DNA of 64,000 nt from assembly GCA_022822785.1 (NCBI GenBank), contig JAJEAL010000096.1, forward strand, positions 1-64,000, in the 5' to 3' direction. Source of the stretch: Candidatus Poribacteria bacterium (GTDB taxonomy: Bacteria > Poribacteria > WGA-4E > PCPOR2b). The translations under genes and the position numbers were made by a program. Position 1 is the stretch's first letter; each line of letters opens with the position of its first letter. Positions 859 through 45,795 of the stretch are shown here, piece after piece. The notes under the pieces were generated by a model. That model searched no databases. It was not told the origin of the DNA and worked only from the letters and a program-made list of their open reading frames with translations.

Positions 859-988
859 ACCGAACGGCTACAACCGTACCGAACTGAAATAACAATCGAT
901 GCAGCGCAGAATCAGCAACGATATGGAGACATGGATATGACTCGTGATATACTAACACAACAGCTCATAAATGATAAGGAGAGACTTA

Positions 989-2200
989 ATGGTACCGCAA
1001 GGAATGTGCAGGATTTTTGGAGGTTGGAACAAGAGGTTTTTTTATAATATTAATTATTTGGTTCTAATCGTGGGAATCCTGTTCTTATTCGCAGGATGTG
1101 AGGAGGTCCAACACCTGCTTGCACCGTTACCGGTTGAGGAGGAGGCTGGTAACATCAGGATTGGCTTTATATATACGAGGGCGGCCCGAAGCAACAGTCT
1201 GAACGGTGCAGAATTAGCCGCGCTGCAACTGAACGGAGAGGGCGGCGTACACGGTAGGGAGATCGAAATTATCGCGCGTGGTAATATAAGTGATACGGAA
1301 CAAGCTGCAGAGATAGCTGAGAAACTGATTATCCGGGAGGGGGTATCGGCAATCGTCGGTCCCAATAGATCGAATTATGCTATAGTCATTGGACCGGTTG
1401 CCCAGCGCTATGGGATACCGATGGTGACTACTACCGCCACCAATCCGTCTGTTACGGCTGCGGGTGACTTTGTGTTTATGGCAGCATTCACCGACGATTT
1501 TCAGGGTAAGGTGATGGCTCAATTTGCCACGCAAGACTTAGATGCAAAGACCGCCGCAGTTCTCACACGCAGCGGGTCCCTTTATTCGGAAGGTTTATCA
1601 CAAACCTTTATTGATAACTTTACTGCTTTGGGAGGCGAAGTCGTATATGCTCAATTTTATATGTTGGGGGATACCGATTTCTCGACGCAGCTAACCGCAG
1701 TCGCTGAAGCTGGTCCAGATGTCTTTTTTCTGCCCGGTTTTGCGTCCGAGATTCCGTTGGTAGTTCAACAGGCAAAAGCGCTCGGTATAACAGGCATCCT
1801 GCTCGGGGGGGACAGCTGGGATAACACCGCGTTGATTTCTGAGAATAGCGAGATTCTTGAGGGCAGCTTTTTTAGCAGCCTGTTTTCCGCCGACGTTGCG
1901 CCGGGCGATTTGAGTGAAGATGCGGATCAATTTATCACCGCCTATACCTCAATTTTTAATGCCCTACCCGCCGGCGGCGCGGCGCTCGGTTATGATGGGG
2001 TCCGGCTTGTGGCTCAGGCGATGCGTCGTGCGGATGGCTTGACGCCAACCGCAATACGCGACCAGCTCGCAGCGAGCATGGACTATAGCGGAGCAACGTT
2101 TATCTCCGGCTACGATGAAAGCCGACATCCGAATAAGAGTGCAGTCATCAATCAGATTGTCAATGGCGAAGCACGATTTTATAAATTAGTTAAGCCGTAG
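989..2200 (+). CDS. ABC-type amino-acid substrate-binding lipoprotein (Peripla_BP_6), copy 1
   Basis: This is a 403-residue protein of the Leu/Ile/Val-type periplasmic binding family (LivK-like, type I fold). A lipoprotein signal ends at Cys37 (LFAGC). The mature part has the family segments: an early beta strand IRIGFIYT, a GVSAIVGPNRS loop, and the DTDFSTQLT stretch. The start at 989 is chosen because AAGGAGAG lies 5 nt before it; an in-frame ATG at 971 has no such site. It sits 55 nt before a close paralogue, and no ABC permease or ATPase is nearby. The ligand is unknown. Loss of transport genes may mean a shared transporter elsewhere or a sensing role. Confidence 0.85.
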   Translation: MVPQGMCRIFGGWNKRFFYNINYLVLIVGILFLFAGCEEVQHLLAPLPVEEEAGNIRIGFIYTRAARSNSLNGAELAALQLNGEGGVHGREIEIIARGNISDTEQAAEIAEKLIIREGVSAIVGPNRSNYAIVIGPVAQRYGIPMVTTTATNPSVTAAGDFVFMAAFTDDFQGKVMAQFATQDLDAKTAAVLTRSGSLYSEGLSQTFIDNFTALGGEVVYAQFYMLGDTDFSTQLTAVAEAGPDVFFLPGFASEIPLVVQQAKALGITGILLGGDSWDNTALISENSEILEGSFFSSLFSADVAPGDLSEDADQFITAYTSIFNALPAGGAALGYDGVRLVAQAMRRADGLTPTAIRDQLAASMDYSGATFISGYDESRHPNKSAVINQIVNGEARFYKLVKP

Positions 2201-2255
2201 ATTTATAGTGAGGTAGCGTACTGTGATTTGTCCAACGATTAACAGGAGAGTTTCA

Positions 2256-3479
2256 ATGACAGAACGACACCTCCGGTGGGCCGGACGCGGATATATCGGT
2301 CTGCTTTGGAGGCTACTCTTTTTAATGATTACCCTATTTTTGGGGTGCGATCAGGTTCAGCAATTGCTCACACCCTTACCGGAGATAGGCGATGAAGATG
2401 TCATTAAAATTGGTTTTCTCCATACCGCACCGGATCGAAACAACAGTCGTTACGGAGCAGAATTAGCGACGCTGCAGCTAAACGAAGGGGGAGGGGTGCA
2501 AGGTGTACCGGTACAACTGATTGCACACGGTATACCGACACAACGCTTCGTAAGCGAGGATATAAACGATACCGAATATGTTACAGAACTAGCACTGGAA
2601 CTGATTGATAAAGAGAAGGTATCGGCGATCGTTGGGCCCAATCGTTCAACCTATGCTGTCGTTGTTGGGGGAATTGCACAGAACCACGGCATACCGATGA
2701 TGGCAACATCTGCCACCAATCCGTCCGTCACTGCTGCGGGTAACTTTGTATTTATGGCGGCATTCACCGACGACTTTCAGGGACGGGCGATGGCAACGTT
2801 TGCCCTCCAAGATTTAGAAGCAAAAACTGCCGCAGTCCTTACGCACAGGGGTGATGTCTATTCGGAGGGCTTATCACAGACCTTCATTGAGAGCTTTATC
2901 GCTCATGGGGGTGAGGTGGTGGCGGATGAGTTTTACACAGCAGGGGATACCGATTTCACCGCGCAGCTGACGGTAATCGCTGAAGCAACACCGGACGTAA
3001 TTTTTAGCACCGGCTTCCTCCCCGAAGTCCCTCTGGTCGTTCAGCAGGCGAGGGGTGAGATTGGGATAACAGCGACCTTCATCGGCGGTGATGCTTGGGA
3101 TAACGCTGCGTTGATCGAGGCAGCTGGGACGGTTATTGACGGAAGTTTTTTCAGTAGTGGATTTTCGGCGGAGGCGGAACCGAGCGATTTGGGCGAAGAT
3201 GCCTATCAATTCGTGGCTGCCTACACCGCAATGTTTGGTATGCTGCCCGATGGGGGCGCTGCGCTGGGATATGATGCACTTCGGCTTGTAGTTGAAGCGA
3301 TGCGTCGCGTGGATAACCTAACGCCGGTGGCGATTCGCGATCAGCTTGCCGCAACGATGAATTATAGCGGTGCAACATTTATCTCTGGTTACGATGAAAA
3401 CCGACACACGTCGAAGGGTGTGGTCATGAAACGCATTGTCGACGGTGAAGTACAGTTCTACAAATTGATTGAACCATAA
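2256..3479 (+). CDS. ABC-type amino-acid substrate-binding lipoprotein (Peripla_BP_6), copy 2
   Basis: This 407-residue paralogue of the preceding gene shares long identical blocks with it (for example AGNFVFMAAFTDDFQG here, AGDFVFMAAFTDDFQG there). The lipobox Cys is residue 31 (TLFLGC), followed by DQVQQLL, the same post-lipobox signature seen in the minus-strand copies as DQIGQLL. The ATG at 2256 has AGGAGAG 5 nt upstream and is preferred to a GTG at 2223. It appears to be a tandem duplicate cotranscribed with copy 1. Confidence 0.85.
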   Translation: MTERHLRWAGRGYIGLLWRLLFLMITLFLGCDQVQQLLTPLPEIGDEDVIKIGFLHTAPDRNNSRYGAELATLQLNEGGGVQGVPVQLIAHGIPTQRFVSEDINDTEYVTELALELIDKEKVSAIVGPNRSTYAVVVGGIAQNHGIPMMATSATNPSVTAAGNFVFMAAFTDDFQGRAMATFALQDLEAKTAAVLTHRGDVYSEGLSQTFIESFIAHGGEVVADEFYTAGDTDFTAQLTVIAEATPDVIFSTGFLPEVPLVVQQARGEIGITATFIGGDAWDNAALIEAAGTVIDGSFFSSGFSAEAEPSDLGEDAYQFVAAYTAMFGMLPDGGAALGYDALRLVVEAMRRVDNLTPVAIRDQLAATMNYSGATFISGYDENRHTSKGVVMKRIVDGEVQFYKLIEP

Positions 3480-9916: not shown

Positions 9917-11089
9917 TTACCCAAAGACCTGAAGTTCACCGTCCTTGACGATTAGCATAAATGGATCGTAGACCGTGTCCCCGACAGCGTTAAAGGAGAA
10001 CTTACCCAACACGGTGTCAAAATCTGAGAGATTTGCCATGGCGTCTCGAATTGCGGTTGAATCGGTGGATTGAGCGTTGGTAATCGCTTCCGCCAAGATA
10101 TAGAGTGAGGTGTACGACTGGGCTGCCCAGATGCTCGGCTCAACGCCGTATTTCTCGGTGTAATTCTGGACGAAGGCTTGGTTTCCCGGTGTATCAGCAG
10201 TGCTGAGCCAGCTCGCAGCGGTTATCAGACCTTCGGCGGCATCGCCTGCGGCTCGGACTTCATCAGCACTCACTTGGGCAACAATAAAGGGGATCGAGTA
10301 GGGAATACCGAGTTCACGCGCCTGAATCATAATGTCAGGCATATCTGTTGGCAGAGCGGAGATAAAGATGGCATCAGGATTTAGGTCCTTGATACGAGTT
10401 AACTGTGCGGAAAAGTCAGTATCGCCACTTTGGAAGACTTCTGTGGTCAGAATCTCGACACCGCTTTTGGTGAGGGCATCTCGCCATACCTGATCGCTAT
10501 TCCGGGCGACGAGTTCGACGCTGTCAACGATGGTGACCACTCGTTGATAGCCGAGTTTTGCGTGTGTTAGCTTGACACTGTTTGGGATAACCACATCTGC
10601 GGTGAGGCTGGCACGAAAGACATAATCACCAATCGCGCTCAAACCGGAGGCACCGGAAGTCGGGCTAAGAGCTACAACTTGGTTCTGTTGTGCGATTGGA
10701 AACGCCTCTCTTGCCGCACTTGAACTGGCGGGACCGAGTATAGCAGACACGCCAGCTTGATGTATTAGTTTATTGAAAGCTTCAACGGCACCTTCAGGGG
10801 TGGTCCCATCGTCCTCAATGATGAAGGTAATTTCTCCATCACCAAGTTGCCCTGAATTGTTAATTTCTTTACGTGCTAACTCAAAACCCTCTTCCATCCG
10901 TGAGCCGAGTGCGGCAAGTTGCCCTGTAATTGGCAAAACAACGCCTATCGGAATCTCTCCGGTGAGTTCTTCCATTTGAGGCGTTGTGGGGATGAGAAGC
11001 TGCCCAATCTGATCACAGGCGGAAAGCCCTGCAATCAGCATGGCGATCATCAAGACAAACGCAAATGTGGTGAACCTTCTGATGTTCAT
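9917..11089 (-). CDS. ABC-type amino-acid substrate-binding lipoprotein, copy 3
   Basis: This is a 390-residue Peripla_BP_6 protein. The signal peptide ends at Cys25 (GLSAC), followed by DQIGQLL. The start at 11089 is fixed by AAGGAGAT just upstream; a longer frame from 11179 would run through a palindromic repeat and is rejected. Domain marks include IPIGVVLPITGQLA, GVSAILGPASS and DTDFSAQLTRIKDLNPDAIF. It is the last of five tandem paralogues on this strand. No permease or ATPase genes lie nearby, so the ligand and transporter are unknown. Confidence 0.85.
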   Translation of the reverse strand: MNIRRFTTFAFVLMIAMLIAGLSACDQIGQLLIPTTPQMEELTGEIPIGVVLPITGQLAALGSRMEEGFELARKEINNSGQLGDGEITFIIEDDGTTPEGAVEAFNKLIHQAGVSAILGPASSSAAREAFPIAQQNQVVALSPTSGASGLSAIGDYVFRASLTADVVIPNSVKLTHAKLGYQRVVTIVDSVELVARNSDQVWRDALTKSGVEILTTEVFQSGDTDFSAQLTRIKDLNPDAIFISALPTDMPDIMIQARELGIPYSIPFIVAQVSADEVRAAGDAAEGLITAASWLSTADTPGNQAFVQNYTEKYGVEPSIWAAQSYTSLYILAEAITNAQSTDSTAIRDAMANLSDFDTVLGKFSFNAVGDTVYDPFMLIVKDGELQVFG

Positions 11090-11138
11090 ATTGAATCTCC
11101 TTCTTGGCTCATGTAAAAAGAAAGTACAAAGCACGACG

Positions 11139-11172
11139 AGAAACCGAGTTTTTTCTTGAAAACTCGGTTTCT
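11139..11172. repeat. Dispersed inverted repeat, family A, copy 1
   Basis: AGAAACCGAGTTTT and AAAACTCGGTTTCT form a perfect 14-bp stem around a six-base loop. This copy is 50 bp upstream of the copy-3 start codon, so it would lie in its 5' leader. Five other clear copies occur in the window. Confidence 0.9.
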
Positions 11173-11237
11173 GTTGCACGATTTCTTAACATGAGCGTCC
11201 TTCTTTTTAAGTTAAAAGAGTGTGGCACTGTTCTAAG

Positions 11238-11296
11238 CGGGCACCCACAAGTTGCTTTGAATCCCGATTCCATCGGAGGAGTGCCCCTACGAATCC
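11238..11296. repeat. Intergenic palindromic repeat, family C, copy 1
   Basis: The stretch begins GGGCACCCACAAG, continues TTGCTTTGAATCCCGAT and ends GTGCCCCTACGAATC. Related copies are at 12520-12575, 13785-13815 (shortened) and, in part, 33077-33106. It lies just beyond the stop of copy 4 and forms a hairpin through GGGCAC/GTGCCC. Confidence 0.75.
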
Positions 11297-11313
11297 TGTT
11301 GAGATTCGGAGAT

Positions 11314-12486
11314 TTACTCGAAAACCTGAAATTCGCCGTTTTTGACAATCAGCACAATCGGATCATAAACGGCATCTCCAACGGCGTTAAAAGAAAACTT
11401 ACCCAGAATGGTGTCGAAATCTGTGATATTCGCCAGCGCGTCCCGAATTGCGGTTGGATCAGCGGATTGGGCATCGGCAATTGCCTTGGCGAGAATATAA
11501 ACGGTGGCATACGACTGCGCTGCCCAGACGTCGGGTTCGACGCCGTATGCTGCTCGGTAATTCTGAACGAAGGCTTGATTTCCCGGCGTGTTGGCGGTAT
11601 TTATCCAATTTGTAAAAGTAATTGCCCCCTCGGCAGCCTTACCCGCGAGTTGAATTTGACTCGCGGCGAAAGTAACGCTTATAAGAAAGGGAACATCGGT
11701 GGGAATGCCAAGCTGACGTGCTTGAATCATAATATCTGAGGTCTCTGTGACCGCAGTCGAGATAAAGATGGCATCAGGGTCTGAATCCTTGATACGGGTC
11801 AGTTGAGCGGAAAAGTCAGTATCATCGGTTTGGATGGTCTCTGTGGTCAGGATTTCGACGTTGTTTGCAGTGAGGGCTTCTCTCACCACTGCGTTACTAT
11901 CAATGGAGAAGAGATCGATCTCATCATATATGGTTGCCACTTTTTTATAGCCGAGTTTTTCCTGAGTTATCCTGATACCGTTTGGAATCAATATATCTGT
12001 GGTGAGACTAGTGCGAAAGATAAAATCGCCAATCGCACTGAGTCCGCGGGCTGCAGAGGTAGGACTTAGTACCACAACCCGGTTCTGTTGTGCAATTGGA
12101 AATACTGCTTGTGCCTGCATTGATGTGGCGGGACCGAGGATAGCAGATACACCATCTTGTTGAATGAGCTTATTGAAGCCCGCAACGGCACCCTCAACAG
12201 TACTTTGGCTGTCCTCGACTATGAGTTTAATTTTTACGTCGCCGAGTTGTGAGCTGTTAATCTCTTTGACAGCGAGTGCAAAACCCTGCCCTATTGGCGG
12301 ATTATTGAAGCTGAGTCGTCCGATGATAGGATGGACGGCACCAATGGCAATTTCTCCACGTAGTCCTTCCATCTGAGGTGTTGCGGGTAGGAGCAGTTGC
12401 CCAATCTGGTCACAAGCGGAAAGGCCCGCAATCAGCGTGACAACTGTCAGAACAAACATGAATGTGGTGAGCTTTTGAATTTTCAT
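11314..12486 (-). CDS. ABC-type amino-acid substrate-binding lipoprotein, copy 4
   Basis: This 390-residue paralogue has its lipobox at Cys25 (GLSAC) followed by DQIGQLL. ATG 12486 has AAGGAGG upstream; longer frames lack support. It shares blocks such as DGVSAILGPATS and DTDFSAQLTRIKDSDPDAIF with its neighbours, and the C-terminal NAVGDAVYDPIVLIV motif. It differs most in the ligand-side loops, as expected for duplicates with changed specificity. Confidence 0.85.
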   Translation of the reverse strand: MKIQKLTTFMFVLTVVTLIAGLSACDQIGQLLLPATPQMEGLRGEIAIGAVHPIIGRLSFNNPPIGQGFALAVKEINSSQLGDVKIKLIVEDSQSTVEGAVAGFNKLIQQDGVSAILGPATSMQAQAVFPIAQQNRVVVLSPTSAARGLSAIGDFIFRTSLTTDILIPNGIRITQEKLGYKKVATIYDEIDLFSIDSNAVVREALTANNVEILTTETIQTDDTDFSAQLTRIKDSDPDAIFISTAVTETSDIMIQARQLGIPTDVPFLISVTFAASQIQLAGKAAEGAITFTNWINTANTPGNQAFVQNYRAAYGVEPDVWAAQSYATVYILAKAIADAQSADPTAIRDALANITDFDTILGKFSFNAVGDAVYDPIVLIVKNGEFQVFE

Positions 12487-12519
12487 CTTGAACCTCCTTC
12501 TTTTTAAGTGTTTTCCTAA

Positions 12520-12575
12520 GAGAGCACCCACCAGTTGCTTTGAATCCCGATCCATCGGGGGTGTTGCCCCTACTC
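12520..12575. repeat. Intergenic palindromic repeat, family C, copy 2
   Basis: The segment AGTTGCTTTGAATCCCGAT followed by CCATCGGGGG and TTGCCCCTACTCGA matches the copy at 11238-11296. Its end overlaps the stop codon of binding-protein copy 5 at 12570. Confidence 0.7.
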
Positions 12576-13739
12576 GAATACTTGAAGTGCACTGTTCTGA
12601 ACAATTAGTACAACCGGATCGTAAACCGCATCGCCGATGGCATCAAAAGAGAATTTACCCAAAATGGTGTCAAGATCTGTGATGTTTGCGAGCGCGTCTC
12701 GAATTGCGGTTGGATCGATGGATTGGGCATCCGCAATTGCCCTAGCGAGAATATAGACGGAAGCATACGACTGCGCCGCCCAGATATTCGGGTTGATACC
12801 ATACTTTGCGCTATAACTTTGAATGAATGCTTGGTTTCTTGGCGTATTGGCTGTATTAACCCAGCTAGAAAAAGCAATTGCTCCTTCAGCAGCATCGCCC
12901 GCGGCTTGTACATCGGAGGTAGTCAGCGTGTTAATAATGAAGACCACCGGATCGGGTATACCGAGTTGGCGCGATTGAATCAGAATCTCAGGTTTGTCTG
13001 GCGGCAAAGCGGAAACGAGGATAACGTCGGGATGTAAGCCTTTGATCCGAGTTAGTTGTGCGGAAAAGTCGGTATCACCACTTTGGAAGGTTTCCGTGGT
13101 CAGAACCTTGACGCCACTGGCAGCGAGGGCGTCCCCCATCACTTCGGCACCATCTGCGGAGAAAAGATCAGTTTCATCATATATGATTGCCGCCTTTTGA
13201 TAGCCAAGTGTCGCTTGCGTAGCATTGATACCGCTTGTAATCAACACATCTGTGGCGAGAATGGTGCGAAAGACAAAATCGCCAATCGCGCCCAAATCGC
13301 GGGCAGCGGCTGTGGCGCTTATCGCCACAACCCCACTCTGTTGTGCGATCGGAAACGCTGCTTCGGTTGCACTTGAACTGGCGGGCCCGAGGATGACAGA
13401 CACGCTGTCTTGATGGATTAGTTTATTAAAGGCTGCGGTAGCACCTTCAGCGTTACCTTGACTGTCCTCGATAATGAACTTGAGTCTTATCTGGCCAAGT
13501 TGCGAGTTATTAATCTCTTCAAGCGCTAGCTCAAAGCCACTTCCCATCTCTGTCCCGACCGAAGCAAGTCGTCCGGTGGCAGGATAGACGAGACCGATGG
13601 CAATCTCTCCGATAGGTTCGTCCATCTGTGGTGGGGTGGGGATGAAAAGTTGCCCAATCTGATCGCAAGCGAAAAGCCCTACAGTCAGTATGACAACTGC
13701 CAAGACAGATGCGAATTTGGTGCCCCCTCTGATGTTCAC
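12570..13739 (-). CDS. ABC-type amino-acid substrate-binding lipoprotein, copy 5 (GTG start)
   Basis: This 389-residue paralogue has Cys25 as the lipidation site (GLFAC) and the shared DQIGQLF/I segment. The start is a GTG at 13739 with AAGGAGAT upstream; it aligns exactly with the ATG of copy 3. Conserved blocks include SVSVILGPASSSATEAAFPIAQ and SGDTDFSAQLTRIKGLHPD. It is part of the five-gene tandem array. Confidence 0.85.
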   Translation of the reverse strand: MNIRGGTKFASVLAVVILTVGLFACDQIGQLFIPTPPQMDEPIGEIAIGLVYPATGRLASVGTEMGSGFELALEEINNSQLGQIRLKFIIEDSQGNAEGATAAFNKLIHQDSVSVILGPASSSATEAAFPIAQQSGVVAISATAAARDLGAIGDFVFRTILATDVLITSGINATQATLGYQKAAIIYDETDLFSADGAEVMGDALAASGVKVLTTETFQSGDTDFSAQLTRIKGLHPDVILVSALPPDKPEILIQSRQLGIPDPVVFIINTLTTSDVQAAGDAAEGAIAFSSWVNTANTPRNQAFIQSYSAKYGINPNIWAAQSYASVYILARAIADAQSIDPTAIRDALANITDLDTILGKFSFDAIGDAVYDPVVLIVQNSALQVFE

Positions 13740-13784
13740 CTTGAATCTCCTTGTTTTTACACAAAAAAATACGGTGTTGTCCAA

Positions 13785-13815
13785 AGAGGGCACCCACAAG
13801 GGGTGCCCCTATGAA
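13785..13815. repeat. Intergenic palindromic repeat, family C, short copy
   Basis: GGGCACCCACAAG is followed directly by GGGTGCCCCTATGAATC, giving a GGGCACCC/GGGTGCCC hairpin. It is the same element as at 11238-11296 without the central part. Confidence 0.7.
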
Positions 13816-13835
13816 TCGTGCTAGTGTTTGACCGC

Positions 13836-14996
13836 TTAGTCAAAGATTTGAAATTCGCCATTTTCGACGATCTGTACAATTGGGTCGTAGATTGCATCCC
13901 CGACGGCATTAAAGGAAAATGCCCCTAAAACGGTATCGAAATTTTTGGTGTTCGCCAGTGCGTCCCGAATAGCGGTTGGATCGATGGATTGAGCTTCTGC
14001 AATTGCTGCAGCGACGATATAAACAGCAGCATACGACTGCGCGGTCCAAGCGTTCGGTTCGGAGTCGTATGTGGCTCGATACTTCTGGACGAAATCTTGA
14101 TTTCTCGGTGTATCAGCCGAGCTAATCCAACCCGCAAAAGAGATTACACCTTCGGCGGCATCGCCTGCGTTTTCCACGTCATTTATCAGGCTTGTGATAA
14201 AGGGCGTTTCGGTGGGAATCCCAAGCTGGCGGCCTTGAATCAGAATTCCAGTCTGCTCCGGTAATTGTGCTGCGATAAAGATAGCGTCAGGATTTGCGTC
14301 TTTTATCCGAGACAATTGGGCAGAAAAATCGGTGTCGCCGCTTTGAAAGCTTTCTGTGGTCAGGATCTCAACGCCGCTTTCAATAAGCGTGTCCCTGAAT
14401 TTTTCATGGCTATCTATGGAGTAGAGATCTATTTCGTCATATATGGTTGCTACCCGTTGATAACCGAGTTTCGCGTGTGTTGCTCTGACACCACTGGGGA
14501 GCAGGATATCTGTGGTGAGTCCAGCTCGGAAAATAAAATCGCCAAGCGCACTTAGACCGGTGGCATTTGAAGAGGAGCTAAAAGCCACAACTCCATTCTG
14601 TTGCGCGATTGGAAACGCCGCTTCGGCTTGGCCTGAGGTGGTGGGACCAAAGATAACGGGTACGCCCGCTTGAATCAGTTTATTATAGGCTTCAACGGCA
14701 CCCTCAACAGTGCTCTGATCGTCTTCGGTGATGAACTTGAATCTTACATCGCCGAGTTGTGAGTTGTTGATCTCCTCAAGAGCCAACTCAAAGCCATATT
14801 GTATCGGGCGCCCAAAATCGGCAAACCGTCCGGTGGCAGGGTAAACAAGACCGATGGGAATCTCTCCGGTGAGTCCGTCCATCTGAGGCGTTTCGGGTAG
14901 GAGCAGTTGCCCAATCTGGTCACAGGCAGAAAACCCGATAATCAGCGCAACAATCGTTAAGACAAAGGCGAATTTGGTCACTCTACTTATATTCAA
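13836..14996 (-). CDS. ABC-type amino-acid substrate-binding lipoprotein, copy 6 (TTG start)
   Basis: This 386-residue paralogue has the lipobox at Cys25 (GFSAC) and DQIGQLL after it. The start is taken as TTG 14996, at the position of the ATG in copy 4, behind the identical leader AAGGAGGTTCAAG; a longer frame from 15059 would add an unlikely polar N-terminus. It has the VPVIFGPTTSGQAEAAFPIAQQ and SGDTDFSAQLSRIKDANPDAIF blocks. Confidence 0.82.
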   Translation of the reverse strand: MNISRVTKFAFVLTIVALIIGFSACDQIGQLLLPETPQMDGLTGEIPIGLVYPATGRFADFGRPIQYGFELALEEINNSQLGDVRFKFITEDDQSTVEGAVEAYNKLIQAGVPVIFGPTTSGQAEAAFPIAQQNGVVAFSSSSNATGLSALGDFIFRAGLTTDILLPSGVRATHAKLGYQRVATIYDEIDLYSIDSHEKFRDTLIESGVEILTTESFQSGDTDFSAQLSRIKDANPDAIFIAAQLPEQTGILIQGRQLGIPTETPFITSLINDVENAGDAAEGVISFAGWISSADTPRNQDFVQKYRATYDSEPNAWTAQSYAAVYIVAAAIAEAQSIDPTAIRDALANTKNFDTVLGAFSFNAVGDAIYDPIVQIVENGEFQIFD

Positions 14997-15033
14997 CTTG
15001 AACCTCCTTATTTTTTTATTCTGTTGTTGAGGG

Positions 15034-16206
15034 TTACTCGAAGATTTCCAATTGACCATTTGTTACGATCAATATCTTCGGGTCGTAAACGGCATCTCCG
15101 ACTTCGTCAAAGGAGAATTTACCGAAAATAGTGTCAAAATCGGTGATATTTGCTAGGGCGTCTCGAATTGCGGTTGGATCGGCGGATTGAGCGTCCGCGA
15201 TTGCCTTAGCCAAAATGTGGAAGGCGGCATAAGACCGTGCTGCGTAGTTGCTCGGCTCTACCCCATATTTTGCGCTATAATTCCGGACGAAGTCTTGATT
15301 TCCCGGTGTGTCAGCTATGTTTGCCCAGCCGACAAAAGTGATCGCCCCTTCGGCAGCGTCACCCGCAGCCTGCACATCGGCTATGGTCAACGTGCGCATA
15401 ACAAGCGGCACTGAATCGGGTATGCCGAGTTGGCGACCTTGCGTCAAGATCCCAGGCTTTTCAGGCGATAAAGAAGAGATAAAGATAACGTCCGGATTTG
15501 CGTCCCGAATCCGAGTTAATTGTGCGGAAAAGTCGGTATCGCCACCTTGGAAAGTTTCTGTGACTAATACCTCAATGTCGTTCGCAGCGAGTGCTTCCCG
15601 CACTGCTTCATCGCTGTCCGTGGAGAAGACATCGTTTTCATCGTACATCGTTGCTGCTGTCTTATAGCCGAGTTTTGCGGAGGTCGTCTCAATGCCACTT
15701 GGAATCAGTACATCTGTGGTGAGCGCGGCACGAAAGACGAAATCGCCAATCGCACTCAGTCCTCGGGCGGCGGAGGTGGGACTAAACGCCACGACTCCAT
15801 TTTCTTGGGCTATCGGAAACACTACCGCACTCTGACTTGAGGTGGCAGGTCCGAGGATAACAGGTACGCCCTCCTGAAGAATCAGCTTATTATAGGCTTC
15901 GATGGCACCTTCAGTGGTACTCTGATCATCCTCTATGATAAACTTGATGCTTCTCCCTCCGAGTTGTGAGTTGTTAATCGCTTCCAGAGCGAGCTCAAAA
16001 CCTTGTTCTATTGGTACGCCAAATGTAGAGGCGAGCCGTCCTGTTGTAGGTAGAACGAGACCAACGGGAATTTCTAAACTCACATCTTCCATATCGGATG
16101 CTGCAGGGACAAGCAGTTGTCCAATCTGATCACAAGCAGAAAACCCCGCAATCAGCGTGAGGATCGCTAGTGCAAACGCAAATTTGATGGATCTTCTGGT
16201 ATTCAT
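15034..16206 (-). CDS. ABC-type amino-acid substrate-binding lipoprotein, copy 7
   Basis: This 390-residue protein is the first of the tandem array in transcription order. The lipobox is Cys25 (GFSAC), followed by DQIGQLL. ATG 16206 has AAGGAAG upstream. A TATAAT box on the same strand at 16288-16283 could be its -10, but no good -35 sits in front. Mature domains match Peripla_BP_6 throughout. Confidence 0.85.
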   Translation of the reverse strand: MNTRRSIKFAFALAILTLIAGFSACDQIGQLLVPAASDMEDVSLEIPVGLVLPTTGRLASTFGVPIEQGFELALEAINNSQLGGRSIKFIIEDDQSTTEGAIEAYNKLILQEGVPVILGPATSSQSAVVFPIAQENGVVAFSPTSAARGLSAIGDFVFRAALTTDVLIPSGIETTSAKLGYKTAATMYDENDVFSTDSDEAVREALAANDIEVLVTETFQGGDTDFSAQLTRIRDANPDVIFISSLSPEKPGILTQGRQLGIPDSVPLVMRTLTIADVQAAGDAAEGAITFVGWANIADTPGNQDFVRNYSAKYGVEPSNYAARSYAAFHILAKAIADAQSADPTAIRDALANITDFDTIFGKFSFDEVGDAVYDPKILIVTNGQLEIFE

Positions 16207-33144: not shown

Positions 33145-33176
33145 TGTTTTTCCGGATCAATTAATGAATCGTGCAA

Positions 33177-33209
33177 AGAAACCGAGTTTTTGAGAAGCCC
33201 TCGGTTTCT
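33177..33209. repeat. Dispersed inverted repeat, family A, copy 4 (one arm degraded)
   Basis: AGAAACCGAGTTTTT faces CCCTCGGTTTCT; the inner stem is imperfect. It is preceded by CGTGCAA, as at 28625, and lies 33 bp upstream of the NUDIX start codon. Confidence 0.85.
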
Positions 33210-36975: not shown

Positions 36976-37009
36976 AGAAACCGAGTTTTTTCTTCAAAAC
37001 TCGGTTTCT
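36976..37009. repeat. Dispersed inverted repeat, family A, copy 5
   Basis: AGAAACCGAGTTTT pairs with AAAACTCGGTTTCT around TTCTTC. It lies 26 bp upstream of the start codon at 36950. A degenerate relative is at 37241-37273. Confidence 0.9.
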
Positions 37010-37793: not shown

Positions 37794-39656
37794 TTATGAA
37801 CTTTCCTCATTCGCAGAGTCCTCAAGTTGTTCCATCAGCTTCTGGGATAATCGCGCTAGGATAGCGAGGCGAAGGTTAGGATTCCCATCTACACCAGCGG
37901 ACTCAAAAACTTCCTCGATTCCACGCTCAATGTCGTCAAGTTGCGCCTCCGCAGTCGGCGGCACCGTAACGACCCGTTCCTGTTCTGTTGCGGAGAGGGT
38001 AGTGATACCAACCCGAATCACCTCACCTGCGTTGTCATCAGATTGCCCATGTCGCTCAAATGACAGTGCCTCAAAATGGTGAAACTTCCGTGCAAGCTCA
38101 GAAAGGTCCATCTCAAACTGGGCTTTATCTAAGTCTGTCCACGATGCCGGGGGTTTGTTGGCGAGGTACGTCCCGATTGCCTCAACCCATTCCTTAAAAT
38201 CAAGGCCTTCGTCGCAGATCCGAATCAAAAACCCTTTGAGTTTCGTGTCAATCGCCCAATCGAGTAGAGGTCGTGCTCTGTTAATGAGTTCAATATCGGG
38301 TGAATCACTGTTTGATTGCAACGAAAACGCAGAAATAAGCATCTCCTCAATAAAAGAAAGCAGGTCATCGTATGCTCGGTTTAACTCGGACAGCGAACTC
38401 CGCAAGATATTGAAAAACTCATGAACCGTGTCTGAATCTGTCTCCACCGATGGTCCAAAAGGGTCGAAGCCGAGGGCTTTAGGCAACTGTTCAAAAAGAA
38501 GCGCGTCCGGCTCTTGGGCATCAGTGATAGCTCTGCGTAAGGCGATTGCTGCGTCGCTTAAATCCTGCGTGAGCATCGTATAACGGGGCAGTTTGTGTAT
38601 AAAACTGATGAGTGGCCTGACAATAACTAGAAGATTTGGTGGGCTTCCTACCGTTGACACCGGTTTAGAGAGCATCCCTGTAAATTGTTCAAACACCTCC
38701 GCTCGAATACCTTCCATCCGGAAACGCTTGATTTCAAATTTCTCAGGAGCCCTAATCAACCGTTCAAAAACCGGCATTGAGATGTCCGCGACAAAGGAAC
38801 CATCTTCGTACAACGCGATTTCCGTCTCATAGTGCAGCAACACTGCACATAACAAGATGGGCATGGGACCGCTTCTCAATCCGAAGGGCGGCTGCTCCAA
38901 CCGATTGTAGAGTTCGGCAACGGATTGACGCTTCTCCTCACATTCGTTAAGAAACCGGTCAATCTCTGACCAACTGGGGGAGAAATTATTTTTATCATCG
39001 GTATTCGGTGGATGAAACCCCCAAACCCCTGAAACGCGACGGTGTATCCCGGTGTCGAATAGTAAAGAGAGGTAAATACTCAGTTCCGGGGGATAACTCT
39101 TGATATCCAGTTTTTCTAGATGTGGGAACTCAAGCATCCCTCCAATCAGTCTTCGTCTTGCGGCCGCTGCCTGTGAGGAAATTTTTCTCCGATTGATCAA
39201 CTCGTTACGAAGGATAGGTGTTTCATCGTAAACAGCGTCGCAGATTGTTGAGAGATACTCGTTGAGCCCTCTTCTTGAGGCAATCTGTCTCAGGTTTCCT
39301 CTGTGATACCATAAACAGCCTCCAGTGTCCCCTTTACGGGTAGGCACAAGACCTACCCCAACTTGCGGGGCAGCACTGTTTCCGCCAAAAAGCGCAGCTA
39401 ATTGCTCGGACACCCCTCGCTCAGTTTCAGTGCGCCGCGCCCGGAGCTCACGCCGTGCTGTTGCATCGCCAACGAGTTCGGGTGTGTTTTCCTCAACCCA
39501 ACCCAAACACCTAAGTTCAAGAACAGCATCGCGCAAACGACCAATTGATTGAGGAATCGCAACAAGCACCTCTTCTCGATCCGCAACCGATGCTTCAGTT
39601 GCCTTTTCAATAAGCTGTTCCGCTTCTGGCTCGCTTGCAGGCAGGGCGTAAAGCAC
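37794..39656 (-). pseudogene. C-terminal remnant of a large defence-type protein
   Basis: The frame from GTG 39656 gives 620 residues with no ribosome site; it is open back to 39689, where two TAA codons block it. The first residues (DADGLVLYALPASEPEAEQL) look like the middle of a protein, and no Walker motif is present. Later parts such as LRSGPMPILLCAVLLHYETEIALYEDG and FERLIRAPEKFEIKRF recall C-terminal halves of long ATP-binding proteins in phage-defence loci. The 5' half appears lost. An in-frame palindromic repeat sits at 39338-39359. It may still be made as a separate protein. Confidence 0.55.
39338..39359. repeat. Palindrome within the coding frame of the remnant gene
   Basis: GGGTAGGCACAAGACCTACCCC has a GGTAGG/CCTACC stem around CACAAGA. 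A relative with a changed stem, GCAGGTACAAGACCTGC, is intergenic at 46957-46973. Confidence 0.5.
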
Positions 39657-39799
39657 AAGCCCGTCGGCATCTGTACCGTTAGCATAGGTTTATTAGCTTT
39701 CATAGCCAATCTTTAGTCCAATATGATATGTGAACACTATCAGATAAATCGGAAACCTCTTAGCTTCACGAAAGAGTTTCTCTTTTTCTCTTCTGCTAA

Positions 39800-40687
39800 T
39801 TACAATTCACGGTAATCGCCTTTAAACACCTCTCTGACGTGCCAACTGATGAACTCTACCTCCGGATAATAGGATTGCCTTTGCGGGTAATTGATTTTTT
39901 GCCCATGGAAATCCATAAGCCACTCCTGAAAGCCCACTGAACCGTTGGCCTCATCTGATACCATTATTTCTAGTCGGTCAGACAAGGTAAACGCGCCACG
40001 GTCAAATAACTTGTGGTGTAGCGAGCATAGAGCCAATCCATTCACTTCTATATCAGGTCCATCTGCCTGACGCCATTTGATATGAGATGCTTCTAGTGCA
40101 ATAGGTTGATGACGTAATGTCACATCAAAACTGCAAACAGCACATTTATATTCGTAGGCTTTTAGGATATTCGCTCGGAAATTGGGGTCGCTTCTTTGCG
40201 GCTTAGAAATCTGGAGAGGAAGCTCAATCCCAACAGTCTGTAAAATGTCCTCATGAAGCGAGGAAGGAAAATGAGCACCTAATAGGCTTTGAATTATTTC
40301 AAAAGACAAACTGGAATCACTCTGAAGTTGATAGGCAATGTCTTCGAGAAAACCGCCAGAAACGTCGTAATGAACCAGATCGCTTTTTAGAGCATCTCCA
40401 CTGGATGTTTGTCTAATTTTGTCGGCGTCGGATATTTCCCAAACCTCATCGTTTTGGAGCCGCCAAAACGGATATTGTGTTCCCTGATTCGTTTGTCTGG
40501 TCCCAAATTCCCTCAGTAGGTTTCCAAGTTTGTCATCTATTTCGGAATATGGAAGGAGGCGGTTCCCATCTCGTAGTAATTCCCCGATGGCATACAAAAC
40601 CAGCAGAGGCTTGTGAGGTGCTCTCTCGTCAGCATTTCTCCACACCTTTAATTGTTCAAATTTTTGAATAATTGCTTCTCTGTCCAT
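39800..40687 (-). CDS. Sulfur-binding-domain HNH endonuclease (phosphorothioate-dependent restriction type)
   Basis: This 295-residue protein has two parts. Residues about 5-110 carry APHKPLL (23-29) and YPFWRLQND (72-80), the marks of the sulfur-binding domain of ScoMcrA-type enzymes, which binds phosphorothioated DNA. The C-terminal half is an HNH nuclease: CAVC (182-185), SHIKW with His202, Asn216, and LCSLHHKLFD. Known members cut DNA near phosphorothioate marks. The start is taken at ATG 40687, but the frame is open to 40870 and contains a relic of another gene. It lies in one strand with a PAPS-reductase-like gene. Confidence 0.75.
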   Translation of the reverse strand: MDREAIIQKFEQLKVWRNADERAPHKPLLVLYAIGELLRDGNRLLPYSEIDDKLGNLLREFGTRQTNQGTQYPFWRLQNDEVWEISDADKIRQTSSGDALKSDLVHYDVSGGFLEDIAYQLQSDSSLSFEIIQSLLGAHFPSSLHEDILQTVGIELPLQISKPQRSDPNFRANILKAYEYKCAVCSFDVTLRHQPIALEASHIKWRQADGPDIEVNGLALCSLHHKLFDRGAFTLSDRLEIMVSDEANGSVGFQEWLMDFHGQKINYPQRQSYYPEVEFISWHVREVFKGDYREL

Positions 40688-40717
40688 TTTGACGCTTTGT
40701 TGTTTGGGGGAATTTAC

Positions 40718-40759
40718 AACGATCTCACAAATCAGGCACGGCTCCTCATCGTCAAAGAT
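40718..40759 (-). pseudogene. Relic of a PAPS-reductase-like C-terminus
   Basis: Right after the GIY-YIG stop, in the frame of the HNH gene, IFDDEEPCLICEIV is encoded. The intact PAPS-reductase-like gene at 43065 ends with LDDEDDDKPCLICDL. The match, including the CxxC, suggests that a second copy of that gene once stood directly before the HNH gene. Confidence 0.5.
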
Positions 40760-40760
40760 A

Positions 40761-41249
40761 TCACTGATGAAATTCCAATATCCAAGATTCCAATAGGCCA
40801 GAAATTCTGTCTGTTTCTTCTTGAACGTCCTGAAGTTTGCCGTATGCATTAGAACGTGTTTGTGAAACAATACGAACCTTTAGGTTATGTGCATATAACC
40901 AATTAAGCAATCGCAGTTGTACTAAGTGTTCTACGGCTATCCGATATTCCTGGCTATCAATCTGAAAGATTTCTTTCGATGTGAATTTTATTGCTGCAAG
41001 ATTCACTTTCTCCAGGGGTACTTCCTCATAGTAATAGACATTAGACAAACGTTGAAGATAGGTATTATTATTTCCGTCAGATAAATGTTGGGCGAGTCTA
41101 CCGAGTGCCCCTGTACGGCCTCTTGTCTGTCCAACGTAGAGAGTCGCCTGATTTTCAACTGTCCCATAAATCGCATACAAAAAACCGTTTCTTTTCGCTA
41201 TTGTTGGATCAAAAACTGTTGCTAGTCCAAGTTCTGCAGCGTGTCTCAT
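40761..41249 (-). CDS. GIY-YIG-like nuclease domain protein
   Basis: This 162-residue protein has LYAIYG (24-29) and LYVGQTRGRTGALGRLAQH (37-55), matching the GIY and YIG strands and the Arg/His that follow in GIY-YIG nucleases. The rest is helical. Its ATG overlaps the TGA of the GHKL ATPase gene (ATGA at 41249-41246), so the two are coupled and probably act together. Nuclease activity is inferred from the motifs. Confidence 0.7.
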   Translation of the reverse strand: MRHAAELGLATVFDPTIAKRNGFLYAIYGTVENQATLYVGQTRGRTGALGRLAQHLSDGNNNTYLQRLSNVYYYEEVPLEKVNLAAIKFTSKEIFQIDSQEYRIAVEHLVQLRLLNWLYAHNLKVRIVSQTRSNAYGKLQDVQEETDRISGLLESWILEFHQ

Positions 41250-42955
41250 AGGTCCGTCAAAAAGTCAGTCAGATCAAGCTTTTGAATCACATCTGAAAGC
41301 GTTTCGCTAACTCGCTCCCGATATTCCGCCATAATCTCCTCAATTTTATCGTCATCCTGCTCTGATTTATAAACAAGGTCAAATTCACCTTTAACGATCG
41401 AATAGAAGAGAACGTCCATGACTTTCAGCAGATTGCTATTGTCGTGGGCCGTGTCTAAAATATCCCGACAAAATCTGTGAGATCTATTAACTCTAACAAT
41501 CAGCCCTTCCGTCGGATCATGGGCTCTTTCCCAAAGTTGATTGTTGTCTAGTATATCCACAAATAGCACACGCTGGCCCGTTGCTTTGACATATTGTGCA
41601 TCTTCAGGTGTTATCGGCTGGGCGCGAACAGCTTTATTCCGACGCTTTTCTAACTCCTTTTTTTCCTTTATAGGAGCAACACTCTCGTCACGTCTAGCTT
41701 CATCGGCTTGGAGATGTGAGATCCGATTTAGCTCCTGATTAGCAGCATCATGAGGACCTTGCCCAAGTGACGCGACCGTAACGCGGTGCACGGTTTGCCA
41801 AGCAATCCGACTCTTTTTTATAGCTTCCTGAACCTCTGGTTTCAGCTGGTCTTGAGCGTTTTCTGAGAGATGTACACGACTCTTTGTAACATTTATATTT
41901 AAAATATCATCAGCATCACTATTGATTAACAGTCTGCCACGAAAAGCATATAAATCTTGATCTTGTGGTACGAAATCTAACCTATCTGCCCACGAAATCA
42001 ATCGCCAGTTACGATAAATGTAGAAACCGTAATTTCCTGCCCCAATCAGATAATGGTTGTGACAATCCCTCCGGCTCATTAAACCCTTACGTTCTACGCT
42101 CGGTGGGTGTGGGAGTTGCGTTATTTCGACCTGTGCCCATGTGCTTCCGGTAGCATCCAGTTGAATCGCCTGTGGTTGTGTAATCCATTTTGGATTAAGA
42201 CCATCCCAATTGTGCTCGTTCAAATCTCCGTTATCAGCGTCAATTTCATCTATAAACAGCGGATCCACCGGTAGGACATTGCTATCATCAATTTTCAACG
42301 AGAGGCGTTTCACCTCATCAACCATACCTCTTAAATAGTAGTAGTAAATCACACCAGCTCTATCCTGTAATCCGCGGATAATCTCAGACGTCGACGGCAG
42401 GGACTGATAAAATAATTTGGTGATACGGATTAAAGTGCCAGATTTCCCTTGAGTGCAAGCGTCCAATTCATTTAAATCTTCCTCTGTAGGATCAATCAAA
42501 TTGTAAACATATTTTCCTTTTTCAACGATTAAATCTTGGTCTAACACGACTTTGCGGACCCTATGCAAGTCGTCTTTAGCACGTGATATTACTTCTAACC
42601 GTTTTCCTAGCGATGAAGCAGCTGACTTTAAGCCCATACCAAACTTTGAAAAGGTTTCCGCATGATATAGTTGTGCTGAAGAACCTAAGGTAAGAGCGTT
42701 ATCTAATCCCTTCTCGTCCATACCGCATCCGTTATCAACAATAACTAGTGACTTTAAAATCGCGCGTGGCCTTCCACGTTGTCCTTCTGCTCGCTCCTCT
42801 CTTTCTGTATTCACTTTGATCACAACGGAGGTTGAGCCTGCCGACACCGAATTATCCACAATATCCAAAATAGCAGATACTGGATCATATCCTATTCGAC
42901 CCATGGCTTGAAATACACGGACCGGATCCCATGCTCCTTCTTTTTGAATATTCAT
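41246..42955 (-). CDS. GHKL (Hsp90/MutL/MORC-like) ATPase
   Basis: This 569-residue protein has a GHKL ATP-binding fold at the N-terminus: N box DIVDNSVSAGS (31-41), G1 box DNGCGMD (74-80) and G2 box KFGMGLKSA (104-112). The usual N-box Glu seems replaced by Asp. A MutL-like transducer region should follow; the C-terminal 120 residues are charged and helical. AGGAAAA precedes the ATG. Coupled to a GIY-YIG gene, it resembles ATPase-nuclease pairs used in phage defence, with ATP-driven dimerisation gating cleavage (inference). Confidence 0.8.
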   Translation of the reverse strand: MNIQKEGAWDPVRVFQAMGRIGYDPVSAILDIVDNSVSAGSTSVVIKVNTEREERAEGQRGRPRAILKSLVIVDNGCGMDEKGLDNALTLGSSAQLYHAETFSKFGMGLKSAASSLGKRLEVISRAKDDLHRVRKVVLDQDLIVEKGKYVYNLIDPTEEDLNELDACTQGKSGTLIRITKLFYQSLPSTSEIIRGLQDRAGVIYYYYLRGMVDEVKRLSLKIDDSNVLPVDPLFIDEIDADNGDLNEHNWDGLNPKWITQPQAIQLDATGSTWAQVEITQLPHPPSVERKGLMSRRDCHNHYLIGAGNYGFYIYRNWRLISWADRLDFVPQDQDLYAFRGRLLINSDADDILNINVTKSRVHLSENAQDQLKPEVQEAIKKSRIAWQTVHRVTVASLGQGPHDAANQELNRISHLQADEARRDESVAPIKEKKELEKRRNKAVRAQPITPEDAQYVKATGQRVLFVDILDNNQLWERAHDPTEGLIVRVNRSHRFCRDILDTAHDNSNLLKVMDVLFYSIVKGEFDLVYKSEQDDDKIEEIMAEYRERVSETLSDVIQKLDLTDFLTDL

Positions 42956-43064
42956 TTTTTTCCTGTTCTTGCAAAAAACGAGTTTTATCGTTTATAGGCT
43001 CCAAAGCCTCTACCTAATGCTATTGACAATCCTCTATTCCCGAATACATAGGATTTCTCTATCA

Positions 43065-43883
43065 CTACAAATCACAAATCAAACATGGTTTATCATCATC
43101 TTCATCGTCAAGGACATCGCCAAAAATTTCAATTAACGAGCGATTCGGTTGAATTTTCTTTTCCTGTGCTATTGCTTTTGCATGGTTCTCCTTAATCTGC
43201 TGTTCCCGTTTAGGGTCGGTCAGTTCTTCTAAGCTCTCGCTTTGGCTCCAGGTATACCGCTCGCCGGTCTCTTTATCGAATTTCTCGTAATCCTTGGCGA
43301 GTTCAAAGAGGTCGGGGTGGTTCTTCTTCAATCCAATCCACTCCGCTTTGCGTTGGTAAAAACAGAAATAGCATCCGGAGCGGGTTCGCCATTTGTAATA
43401 CTCTGGTAAACCGAGACCACTCTCCTCTAAAATCCGATAGACATCCCGCTCGGTGATGCCGTCCTCTTTGAAGGGATACTTGGGTTCGATATTTCGTGCC
43501 TCAACGTTCTTCAGGGGTTTATAGCCAACACGGTCCTCGTCGGCACGGATAGCGATGTAGTTGTAAGCCTTATCCTCACCAACAAAATCCTCAAAGGGCT
43601 TGATTTTGAGGAGGCGTGTACACCACCGCACTTGTGATGACGGCAGTAATCCACCGAAAACCGAAAGCCAATGGTCAAATTCACGATCGGCGTTTAACCG
43701 TTCAATTTTTTTGCCTAGAAAGGCTTCCAACCGATCGAGAAATTCATACGTTTCCGGCAACTCCTTCCCTGTGTCGCAGAAGGCGTATTCCATCTCCGGC
43801 ACTTTGTCACGCATGTAAATCGCGAGTGCGGAACTATCTTTGCCCCCTGAAAGACCGAGGATATGGCGTGTTTTTTGTCCCAT
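43065..43883 (-). CDS. PAPS reductase/DndC-like sulfurtransferase family protein
   Basis: This 272-residue protein has the PP-loop SGGKDS at 12-17, which binds adenylated substrate. Cysteines at 88 (RWCTRLLKI), 171 and 174 (GCYFC) and 267 and 270 (PCLIC) could hold an Fe-S cluster. The family includes PAPS reductases, DndC and BREX type 4 BrxP. Lack of any cysteine biosynthesis gene nearby and the sulfur-binding nuclease downstream favour a role in DNA sulfur modification or its sensing. AGGGGGA precedes the ATG. No dndA, B, D or E homologue is in the window. Confidence 0.8.
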   Translation of the reverse strand: MGQKTRHILGLSGGKDSSALAIYMRDKVPEMEYAFCDTGKELPETYEFLDRLEAFLGKKIERLNADREFDHWLSVFGGLLPSSQVRWCTRLLKIKPFEDFVGEDKAYNYIAIRADEDRVGYKPLKNVEARNIEPKYPFKEDGITERDVYRILEESGLGLPEYYKWRTRSGCYFCFYQRKAEWIGLKKNHPDLFELAKDYEKFDKETGERYTWSQSESLEELTDPKREQQIKENHAKAIAQEKKIQPNRSLIEIFGDVLDDEDDDKPCLICDL

Positions 43884-43925
43884 AGTATCCCCCTGTTTTC
43901 TTTTTATCGTATACTTTGTGTCCCA

Positions 43926-44405
43926 CTAATCTGTCGCCTCTAGGTCAGTTAAATCTTCGACGCCAGCGATATCGGCTAGCATTCGAGAATATTTGCGTAA
44001 TTCCACCTGGAGAGAAGCGAGTTCTTCGCGGAAAGCGGAGCGTTCCGATTCCTGCTCAAAATCACCTGCCAAGCTCTTTCGATGCCACTTTGCAGTAAAC
44101 GGACGAACAACTTGGTTAAGCACAACAATTGCAATTTTTGTGAAATTGATGCAATCTGGACCTTGTTCTTTGATGACTTCCCGCGTAATTGCGAAGAGTG
44201 AATAAACACTGTCCAATGCTGTTTGCTCATCGCCGTGCTCGGTAGGCAATGGCTGTGTGGTGATTCTTGTAAGCAATTCAATGTATAGTGCCCAAGCGGC
44301 ATCTTTATCGGCCGTTTCTGTAGTCCACTCCATTTGCAGAAAAGGAGGGGTAATCTTCAGGCTCGTCATACCCGATTTTTCAAGGAAATCTGAGAATCTC
44401 ATCAT
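43926..44405 (-). CDS. Small protein coupled to a TIR-like gene, family not recognised
   Basis: This 159-residue protein starts at ATG 44405 (or 44402), which overlaps the TAA of the TIR-like gene by one base (TAATG). It is mostly helical, with the conserved-looking core AIVVLNQVVRPFTAKWHRKSLAG and an acidic C-terminus (GVEDLTDLEATD). No signal or membrane segment is seen. Tight coupling suggests it partners the TIR-like protein. I cannot name the family. Confidence 0.7.
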   Translation of the reverse strand: MMRFSDFLEKSGMTSLKITPPFLQMEWTTETADKDAAWALYIELLTRITTQPLPTEHGDEQTALDSVYSLFAITREVIKEQGPDCINFTKIAIVVLNQVVRPFTAKWHRKSLAGDFEQESERSAFREELASLQVELRKYSRMLADIAGVEDLTDLEATD

Positions 44406-44977
44406 TACCACCTTTCACCAGAATGGTTGTTTACAAACGAAGGGTAAGAATTATCGGGAATTATCTTGTTTCTCCGATTGAAAGCTTCATGTATCCACGA
44501 TTGTACGAGAGTCGGATCGATGTTCCAATTGTAAATCTGTGCGAACCCACACTCTATGTTATCGTGAAGCCTCGGAGGAATTGTGTGGACAAAATATTCA
44601 TTCGGTTTGCCGTATGGCTTAGGATAGGTCGGCAACAAAATCCCTAAAAGACCTGAACGAGGATTGTATTGTGTTTGACGTATGCTCGCCCCGATTTCCC
44701 AATCCACATGTTTTCTTTTCCATGTTTCCGCACCAATTAAAACGACTGTCACGGTCGAATCTCGAAGATATTCGTCCCGGATTTTTTGACGAATCGTGTC
44801 TGTTTTGAGGTTTGGATCGATATCACCAATTTGGACAGATTGTGATACGATGATGTCATGAATATCTGAAAACAACCCTTCAAACTGATTTCTGTATACT
44901 TGGTCATTATCATGATGATAACTGACAAAAACCTTATGGCGATTATTCATCTGATTTAGTCCATACTGTGGTCTCAT
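44405..44977 (-). CDS. TIR-like domain protein (ThsB/DUF1863-like)
   Basis: This 190-residue protein has a TIR-like fold: KVFVSYHHDND near residue 15 (strand A), TVTVVLIGAETWKRKHVDWEIGASI near 80-105 (strand D and the W-E motif). The layout matches the MTH538 TIR-like group that includes Thoeris ThsB, which makes NAD-derived signals on phage infection. No SIR2 or other known Thoeris effector is adjacent. M10 is an alternative start. It heads the defence unit. Confidence 0.8.
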   Translation of the reverse strand: MRPQYGLNQMNNRHKVFVSYHHDNDQVYRNQFEGLFSDIHDIIVSQSVQIGDIDPNLKTDTIRQKIRDEYLRDSTVTVVLIGAETWKRKHVDWEIGASIRQTQYNPRSGLLGILLPTYPKPYGKPNEYFVHTIPPRLHDNIECGFAQIYNWNIDPTLVQSWIHEAFNRRNKIIPDNSYPSFVNNHSGERW

Positions 44978-45028
44978 TCCTCAGTTTCCCCCATTAGACA
45001 CATAAGAACAAATTTCAATTTCAGCGGA

Positions 45029-45056
45029 AGTTTACTAAAACCCACTACAATCTCAA
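45029..45056 (-). promoter_or_regulatory. Candidate promoter of the defence unit
   Basis: TTGAGA (45056-45051), a 16-bp spacer and TAAACT (45034-45029) precede the TIR-like start by about 50 nt. The -10 match is only fair. Confidence 0.4.
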
Positions 45057-45066
45057 AAACATCTAA

Positions 45067-45761: not shown

Positions 45762-45795
45762 AGAAACCGAGTTTTTTTGAAAAAACTCGGTTTCT
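45762..45795. repeat. Dispersed inverted repeat, family A, copy 6
   Basis: AGAAACCGAGTTTTTT pairs with AAAAAACTCGGTTTCT. It lies 85 bp past the stop of the DUF58 gene at 45880, so it follows rather than precedes a gene. Confidence 0.9.

Follow-up and report, generated by a model that had tools for sequence, protein, structure and literature searches.

A probably remodelled Ssp locus with a predicted sulfur-binding-domain HNH nuclease and a MORC-like ATPase in Candidatus Poribacteria

Gene content of the locus

We analyzed a stretch of 64,000 nucleotides (the window; positions 1 to 64,000 of contig JAJEAL010000096.1, assembly GCA_022822785.1) from a Candidatus Poribacteria metagenome-assembled genome (MAG) of 5.6 Mb that is 96% complete. 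From 45.0 down to 37.8 kb the minus strand carries, in this order, genes for a ThsB-type TIR protein, a 161-aa protein, the sulfur enzyme SspD, a GHKL ATPase, a GIY-YIG-like protein and an HNH nuclease with a predicted sulfur-binding domain (SBD), followed by a 620-aa ORF representing part of sspC. Other genomes of the phylum, and contigs and loci, are referred to below by our own handles (G, C, and L, respectively). The main features are:

43065..43883, minus strand: sspD (ATP pyrophosphatase/PAPS-reductase fold); PADLOC SspD 5.3e-116, 92% identity to sspD of the intact G021 locus
41246..42955, minus strand: MORC/MutL-like GHKL ATPase; HATPase_c_3 8.6e-24, profile match to the human MORC2 ATPase
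40761..41249, minus strand: GIY-YIG-like protein; Pfam GIY-YIG E=0.015, pair with GHKL kept in G014, G028, and G031
40727..40762, minus strand: remnant of a second sspD 3' end (DIFDDEEPCLIC), directly upstream of the HNH gene, marking the junction with the GHKL-GIY cassette
39800..40687, minus strand: SBD-HNH nuclease, predicted phosphorothioate-dependent type IV restriction enzyme; NF045808 2.9e-102, matches to ScoMcrA/SprMcrA SBD structures, HNH residues intact in alignment
37794..39668 (ORF 37794-39656), minus strand: 5'-truncated sspC, C-terminal half only; PADLOC SspC 3.2e-149, profile positions 549 to 1053

A previous sequence-only reading had described the sulfur enzyme, the SBD-HNH nuclease, the GHKL ATPase and the GIY-YIG protein as a putative operon. 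All four ORFs were confirmed, on one strand. The HNH frame used in that reading was longer and runs back over the 3' end of the GIY-YIG gene, while the true ATG is probably at 40687. The GIY-YIG and GHKL genes share a 4-base overlap. We found no named system with exactly these four genes, in agreement with the reading.

The Ssp modification module is incomplete

The sulfur enzyme had been taken to be DndC-like. A PADLOC search, which the sequence-only reading had itself proposed, instead identified it as SspD (5.3e-116 compared to 3.4e-6 for DndC) and the ORF adjoining the HNH gene as a fragment of SspC, making this an Ssp rather than a Dnd locus. The window's own genome has no TIGR03183 match for DndC and no convincing copy of DndD, for which just 70-residue ATPase-domain matches were found. 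The reading had seen no dndA, B, D or E, but the half SspC, a damaged modification gene next to the nuclease, had gone unnamed.

Full-length SspC has about 1190-1240 aa in relatives, while the copy at the locus starts at about residue 549, and its alignment to the intact sspC of G021, G018, and G022 ends at 39668-39671. A whole-genome search for sspB (DUF4007) gave zero matches in the 96%-complete genome, and the search for sspC revealed no second copy. The congener G021 holds an intact system comprising the TIR gene, the 161-aa gene, sspD, other genes, sspB, and full sspC. The housekeeping enzyme IscS can stand in for SspA as cysteine desulfurase (PMC13251355). With sspB lost and sspC truncated, SspD alone should be unable to thiolate DNA, and the modification activity has probably been lost at this locus.

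PADLOC, Pfam and NCBIfam scans identified no SspE or SspFGH effector among the genes at 37.8-45.4 kb. The ORFs of the same region include no PglZ or BrxL gene, and PglZ-domain matches were confined to other contigs.

Mosaic structure

Different parts of the locus resemble different relatives. Positions 43065-45063 align to G021 at 88%, and 37795-39668 align to sspC of G021, G018, and G022; together with 43.07-45.06 kb, the latter segment matches the intact locus of the congener. Between them, the counterpart of 40760-42971, aligning at 71-73%, is the GHKL-GIY cassette in G014 and G028, and that of 39802-40753, aligning at 76%, is the sspD-HNH pair in G020; the latter alignment takes in the final 29 bases of the G020 sspD gene. 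These 29 bp (40725-40753) match the sspD 3' ends of G021 and G022 at 90-93%, and are continuous with the HNH gene in the sspD-HNH locus of G020. The GHKL-GIY cassette thus has a complete sspD on one side and, on the other, an sspD scrap and then HNH; the region for sspB and the 5' half of sspC is missing. A scan for sspD tails found similar 3'-end scraps in G021 and G037, where other genes separate them from the sspD located 3-4 kb upstream.

The same genome carries a decayed second sspD-HNH unit on contig C102, at the site where G020 has an intact pair. This remnant (L182 7135-7407) is internally deleted, leaving sspD residues 1-28 and HNH residues 1-45. The gene order of the locus in the window was found to be unique among 85 genomes of the phylum.

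The SBD-HNH nuclease

The HNH protein scores above the cut-off of NCBIfam model NF045808, "phosphorothioated DNA-binding restriction endonuclease" (E=2.9e-102). Within its N-terminal half, matches were found to the solved structures of the ScoMcrA sulfur-binding domain (5zmo, E=2e-13) and of an SprMcrA-type SBD (7cc9, E=6e-8), and the published HK and YP sulfur-site motifs are present (PHKP and YPFW). By sequence, then, the protein is assigned a sulfur-binding domain, as had been proposed; the structure model, made from a two-sequence alignment only, has a pLDDT of 37. Cleavage specific for phosphorothioate DNA is predicted.

Like SprMcrA and EcoWI, the protein combines an SBD with HNH and has no SRA domain. 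It differs from ScoMcrA, SprMcrA, and EcoWI in its surroundings. Coexpression of Dnd modification and ScoMcrA is lethal to cells (PMC3009677), and a published survey, which expected avoidance, placed fewer than 3.6% of SBD-HNH genes close to dnd genes (PMC7461809), whereas in the phylum 23 of 30 full-length homologues belong to ssp loci.

Exclusion of sspB and sspC where HNH follows sspD

We tabulated sspB, sspC, sspD, HNH, GHKL, and GIY-YIG in the 85 phylum genomes by whole-genome search, and then read about 55 loci. The HNH gene follows sspD directly in 14 genomes, at a distance of 10-42 bp; the window is the 15th case, with the GHKL-GIY cassette intervening. Both sspB and sspC were intact in 0 of these 15 sspD-HNH loci, compared to 36 of the 40 other sspD loci (Fisher p=3e-10); the four exceptions among the latter were loci at the edge of a contig or of the fetched sequence, or an orphan second copy. 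In most of the 15 loci both genes were absent. In G081 and G082 sspB was broken or missing and sspC intact, in G013 sspC was missing and sspB intact, and in G033 both were damaged. On the sspD tree there were nine label changes, at least five of which are forced by well-supported branches. The exclusion therefore does not go back to one inherited event.

In 12 genomes the HNH gene was located just upstream of intact sspB-sspC-sspD, with intact HNH residues and low dN/dS. The idea that HNH is dead where sspBCD is intact was rejected, since the residues were intact and dN/dS was low in both arrangements. Likewise, upstream and downstream HNH genes do not form two clades, as they interleave on the HNH tree, and the sulfur-site motif fails to separate them. 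The exclusion downstream of sspD, next to 12 loci where both coexist, amounts to a natural experiment on combining a DNA mark with a mark-cutting enzyme, and singles out the gene pairs worth testing.

We found the exact set of four genes at no other searched locus, while its parts recur: sspD with HNH in 14 and sspD with GHKL in 4 other genomes. HNH, sspBCD, and GHKL occur together in G059, where the contig stops before a GIY-YIG gene could be seen.

We also observed genes resembling PbeA and PbeC directly downstream of sspBCD in G063 and G083 (L091 2144-6668; L092 14598-19095), an Ssp-Pbe combination. In congeners, intact Ssp loci include DndB-like genes together with another GIY-YIG-type or HATPase gene (L036 9625-15436; L037 14509-18722), which suggests a variable effector slot around sspD.

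The GHKL-GIY-YIG pair

The GHKL assignment of the sequence-only reading was borne out (HATPase_c_3, E=8.6e-24), and the best solved relative of the GHKL profile is the human MORC2 ATPase (E=8e-4). The GIY-YIG assignment is a weak call: the domain was found in three of four homologues and GIY/YIG-type motifs are visible, but the protein's own Pfam match (E=0.015) lies below the cut-off. Its structure model is poor (pLDDT about 37, from a two-sequence alignment only), and PDB matches of the GIY-YIG profile were rejected as chance.

Within the phylum, each of the five close GHKL homologues adjoins sspD, and GIY-YIG directly follows GHKL in each of the four close-homologue loci whose contig allows a view. 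In G014, G028, and G059 the GHKL gene adjoins intact sspBCD. On plasmids, the closest full-length homologues form part of dcm-vsr-GHKL-HNH-helicase restriction cassettes, and the dcm-vsr-type cassette is the setting described for prokaryotic MORCs (Iyer et al., 2008; PMC2292703). Distant GHKL-helicase-PLD-nuclease modules flank sspABCD on plasmids of Pannonibacter, Mesorhizobium, and Roseobacter, and dual-HATPase proteins adjoin sspBCD in Chlorohelix and Methylorubrum. Of the 41 distant GHKL relatives outside the phylum among the matches listed by a genome scan, none had an ssp gene in the fetched flanks.

The pair is predicted to be a MORC-type restriction module. The GHKL ATPase has a putative nuclease as its partner within a restriction neighborhood, as in prokaryotic MORC/paraMORC modules (PMC2292703); the pair in the window differs in having a GIY-YIG-like partner, no helicase or methylase, and a coupling to sulfur rather than methyl modification. 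SspFGH is toxic in the absence of the mark (PMC8092258). Since GHKL-GIY is intact next to a modification module that probably does not work, it is unlikely to behave like SspFGH and more likely requires the mark or regulates itself. About 84% of the 2,678 known sspBCD loci have no recognized restriction partner (PMC8092258), and our literature search found no publication naming GHKL modules as Ssp partners. The phylum supplies two strong candidates for such partners, SBD-HNH and the MORC-type GHKL with GIY-YIG.

Interpretation of the locus

The locus is probably a remodelled Ssp (single-strand phosphorothioation) defence locus in which the mark is no longer made and which carries a type IV SBD-HNH enzyme and a MORC-type second effector. 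With sspB gone and the N-terminal half of SspC lost, the cell would have given up phosphorothioation. As the mark would not be made, the HNH enzyme should be safe for its host. It would bind incoming DNA at the sulfur of its phosphorothioate links and cut nearby, as a type IV restriction enzyme; possible targets are DNA from many Ssp- or Dnd-bearing neighbors and DNA from phages grown in such cells. Phosphorothioation genes are enriched in sponge metagenomes (PMC5099237). GHKL-GIY would form a second, ATP-driven restriction module of a type that is normally a methylation partner, here presumably recruited by Ssp loci.

Compared to SspABCD-SspE and SspABCD-SspFGH, the locus shares sspD, the sspC remnant, and same-site relatives with intact sspB-sspC-sspD. 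It differs by having lost sspB and half of sspC, and by having SBD-HNH and GHKL-GIY-YIG in place of SspE or SspFGH. Dnd loci with SBD(wHTH)-SRA-HNH or GIY-YIG (URI) neighbors (PMC10853773) and type 4 BREX (PMC12839542) also have phosphorothioation-type enzymes near SBD-HNH and GIY-YIG nucleases. The window, however, has Ssp rather than Dnd genes and no PglZ or BrxL, and modification is apparently lost rather than present.

The sequence-only reading had pointed out that a mark and a mark-cutting enzyme are reported to be lethal together. In this genome, with its marking machinery broken, most of that paradox disappears. The lethality argument is backed by the mutual exclusion where HNH follows sspD, but not by the 12 loci with HNH upstream of intact sspBCD. 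Altogether, the earlier interpretation is partly supported.

Several observations weigh against a remodelled locus that has given up its mark. In addition to the 12 upstream loci, a Methylibium plasmid carries SBD-HNH and an intact sspBCD locus 117 kb away on the same replicon, so nuclease and mark can coexist, perhaps by having different target sequences. The sspC fragment has a dN/dS of 0.15, that is, its constraint is not relaxed, and the truncation may therefore be recent or the half-protein may still work. As the window comes from a MAG, sspB could be located in unassembled sequence, and the junctions of the mosaic could be products of assembly. Finally, branch dN/dS of sspD is about 0.02-0.16 in loci without sspB and sspC, similar to intact loci, and this strong purifying selection is not predicted for a mere leftover.

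The constraint on sspD bears on a different explanation, that sspD and SBD-HNH form a genuine two-gene system without SspB and SspC, in which SspD activates sulfur for, or transfers it to, another target, or regulates the nuclease and HNH acts as sensor or effector. The pairs 10-42 bp apart in 14 other genomes fit with this, as do the full-length sspD in most such loci, where sspB and sspC have usually vanished without a trace, and the sister pair G040/G043, which both lack sspB and sspC and have an sspD dN/dS of 0.026. The dN/dS values are Nei-Gojobori estimates with dS often near saturation, and since the switches are scattered on the sspD tree and may in some cases be so recent that dN/dS is uninformative, long-term retention of sspD is not proven. 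Furthermore, in G036, G039, G019, and G079 sspD is broken, lost or reduced to its tail, with all or part of HNH still present. We know of no SspD activity on DNA without SspB and SspC. Overall, the data favor, but do not prove, some function of SspD without its partners, and we regard the two-gene system as unlikely. It is quite unlikely that there is a minimal unit of SspD and SBD-nuclease, with SspD having its own role, by whose acquisition Ssp loci repeatedly switch from marking to attacking.

Alternatively, the region may be a decaying defence island where a broken Ssp module and leftover genes are neighbors by accident and have no joint function. The truncated sspC, the missing sspB, the decayed scrap on C102, and the unique gene order all argue for decay. 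Against it, the four ORFs are intact, as are the TIR and 161-aa genes; sspD, the 161-aa gene, and the sspC fragment all remain under undiminished constraint; and the pairwise associations recur in independent lineages. We likewise regard this explanation as unlikely.

An arrangement as in SspABCD-SspE, where HNH or GHKL-GIY takes the cell's own sulfur mark as a license against unmarked DNA, is improbable: SspE works in this way (PMC13251355), HNH precedes intact sspBCD in 12 relatives with conserved active-site residues and low dN/dS, and GHKL adjoins intact sspBCD in three genomes, but the known genes of the window's genome cannot make the mark.

Neighboring genes and repeats

Upstream of sspD, two further genes complete the run:

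43926..44411, minus strand: 161-aa protein, function not assigned; 94% identity in G021 (upstream of sspD), also upstream of HNH in G019
44405..44977, minus strand: ThsB-type TIR protein; PF08937 ThsB_TIR 3e-20, kept in G021

The two genes overlap (43926-44977), and the same pair is found upstream of sspD in G021. The best PADLOC match of the TIR protein is the candidate system protein PDC-M50B, and the 161-aa gene has a dN/dS of 0.07 relative to G021.

A 34-nt palindromic repeat (AGAAACCGAG...CTCGGTTTCT) is present at 36976-37009, 33174-33209, and 45762-45795, and also near ssp loci of relatives. We considered the flanking copies as island boundaries and rejected this, since the repeat is interspersed and has further copies at 33.2 kb and at other loci. 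Elsewhere in the window, a tandem array of five paralogous branched-chain-amino-acid-type ABC receptor lipoproteins is located at 9917-16206, with two more at 971-3479 (named by eye).

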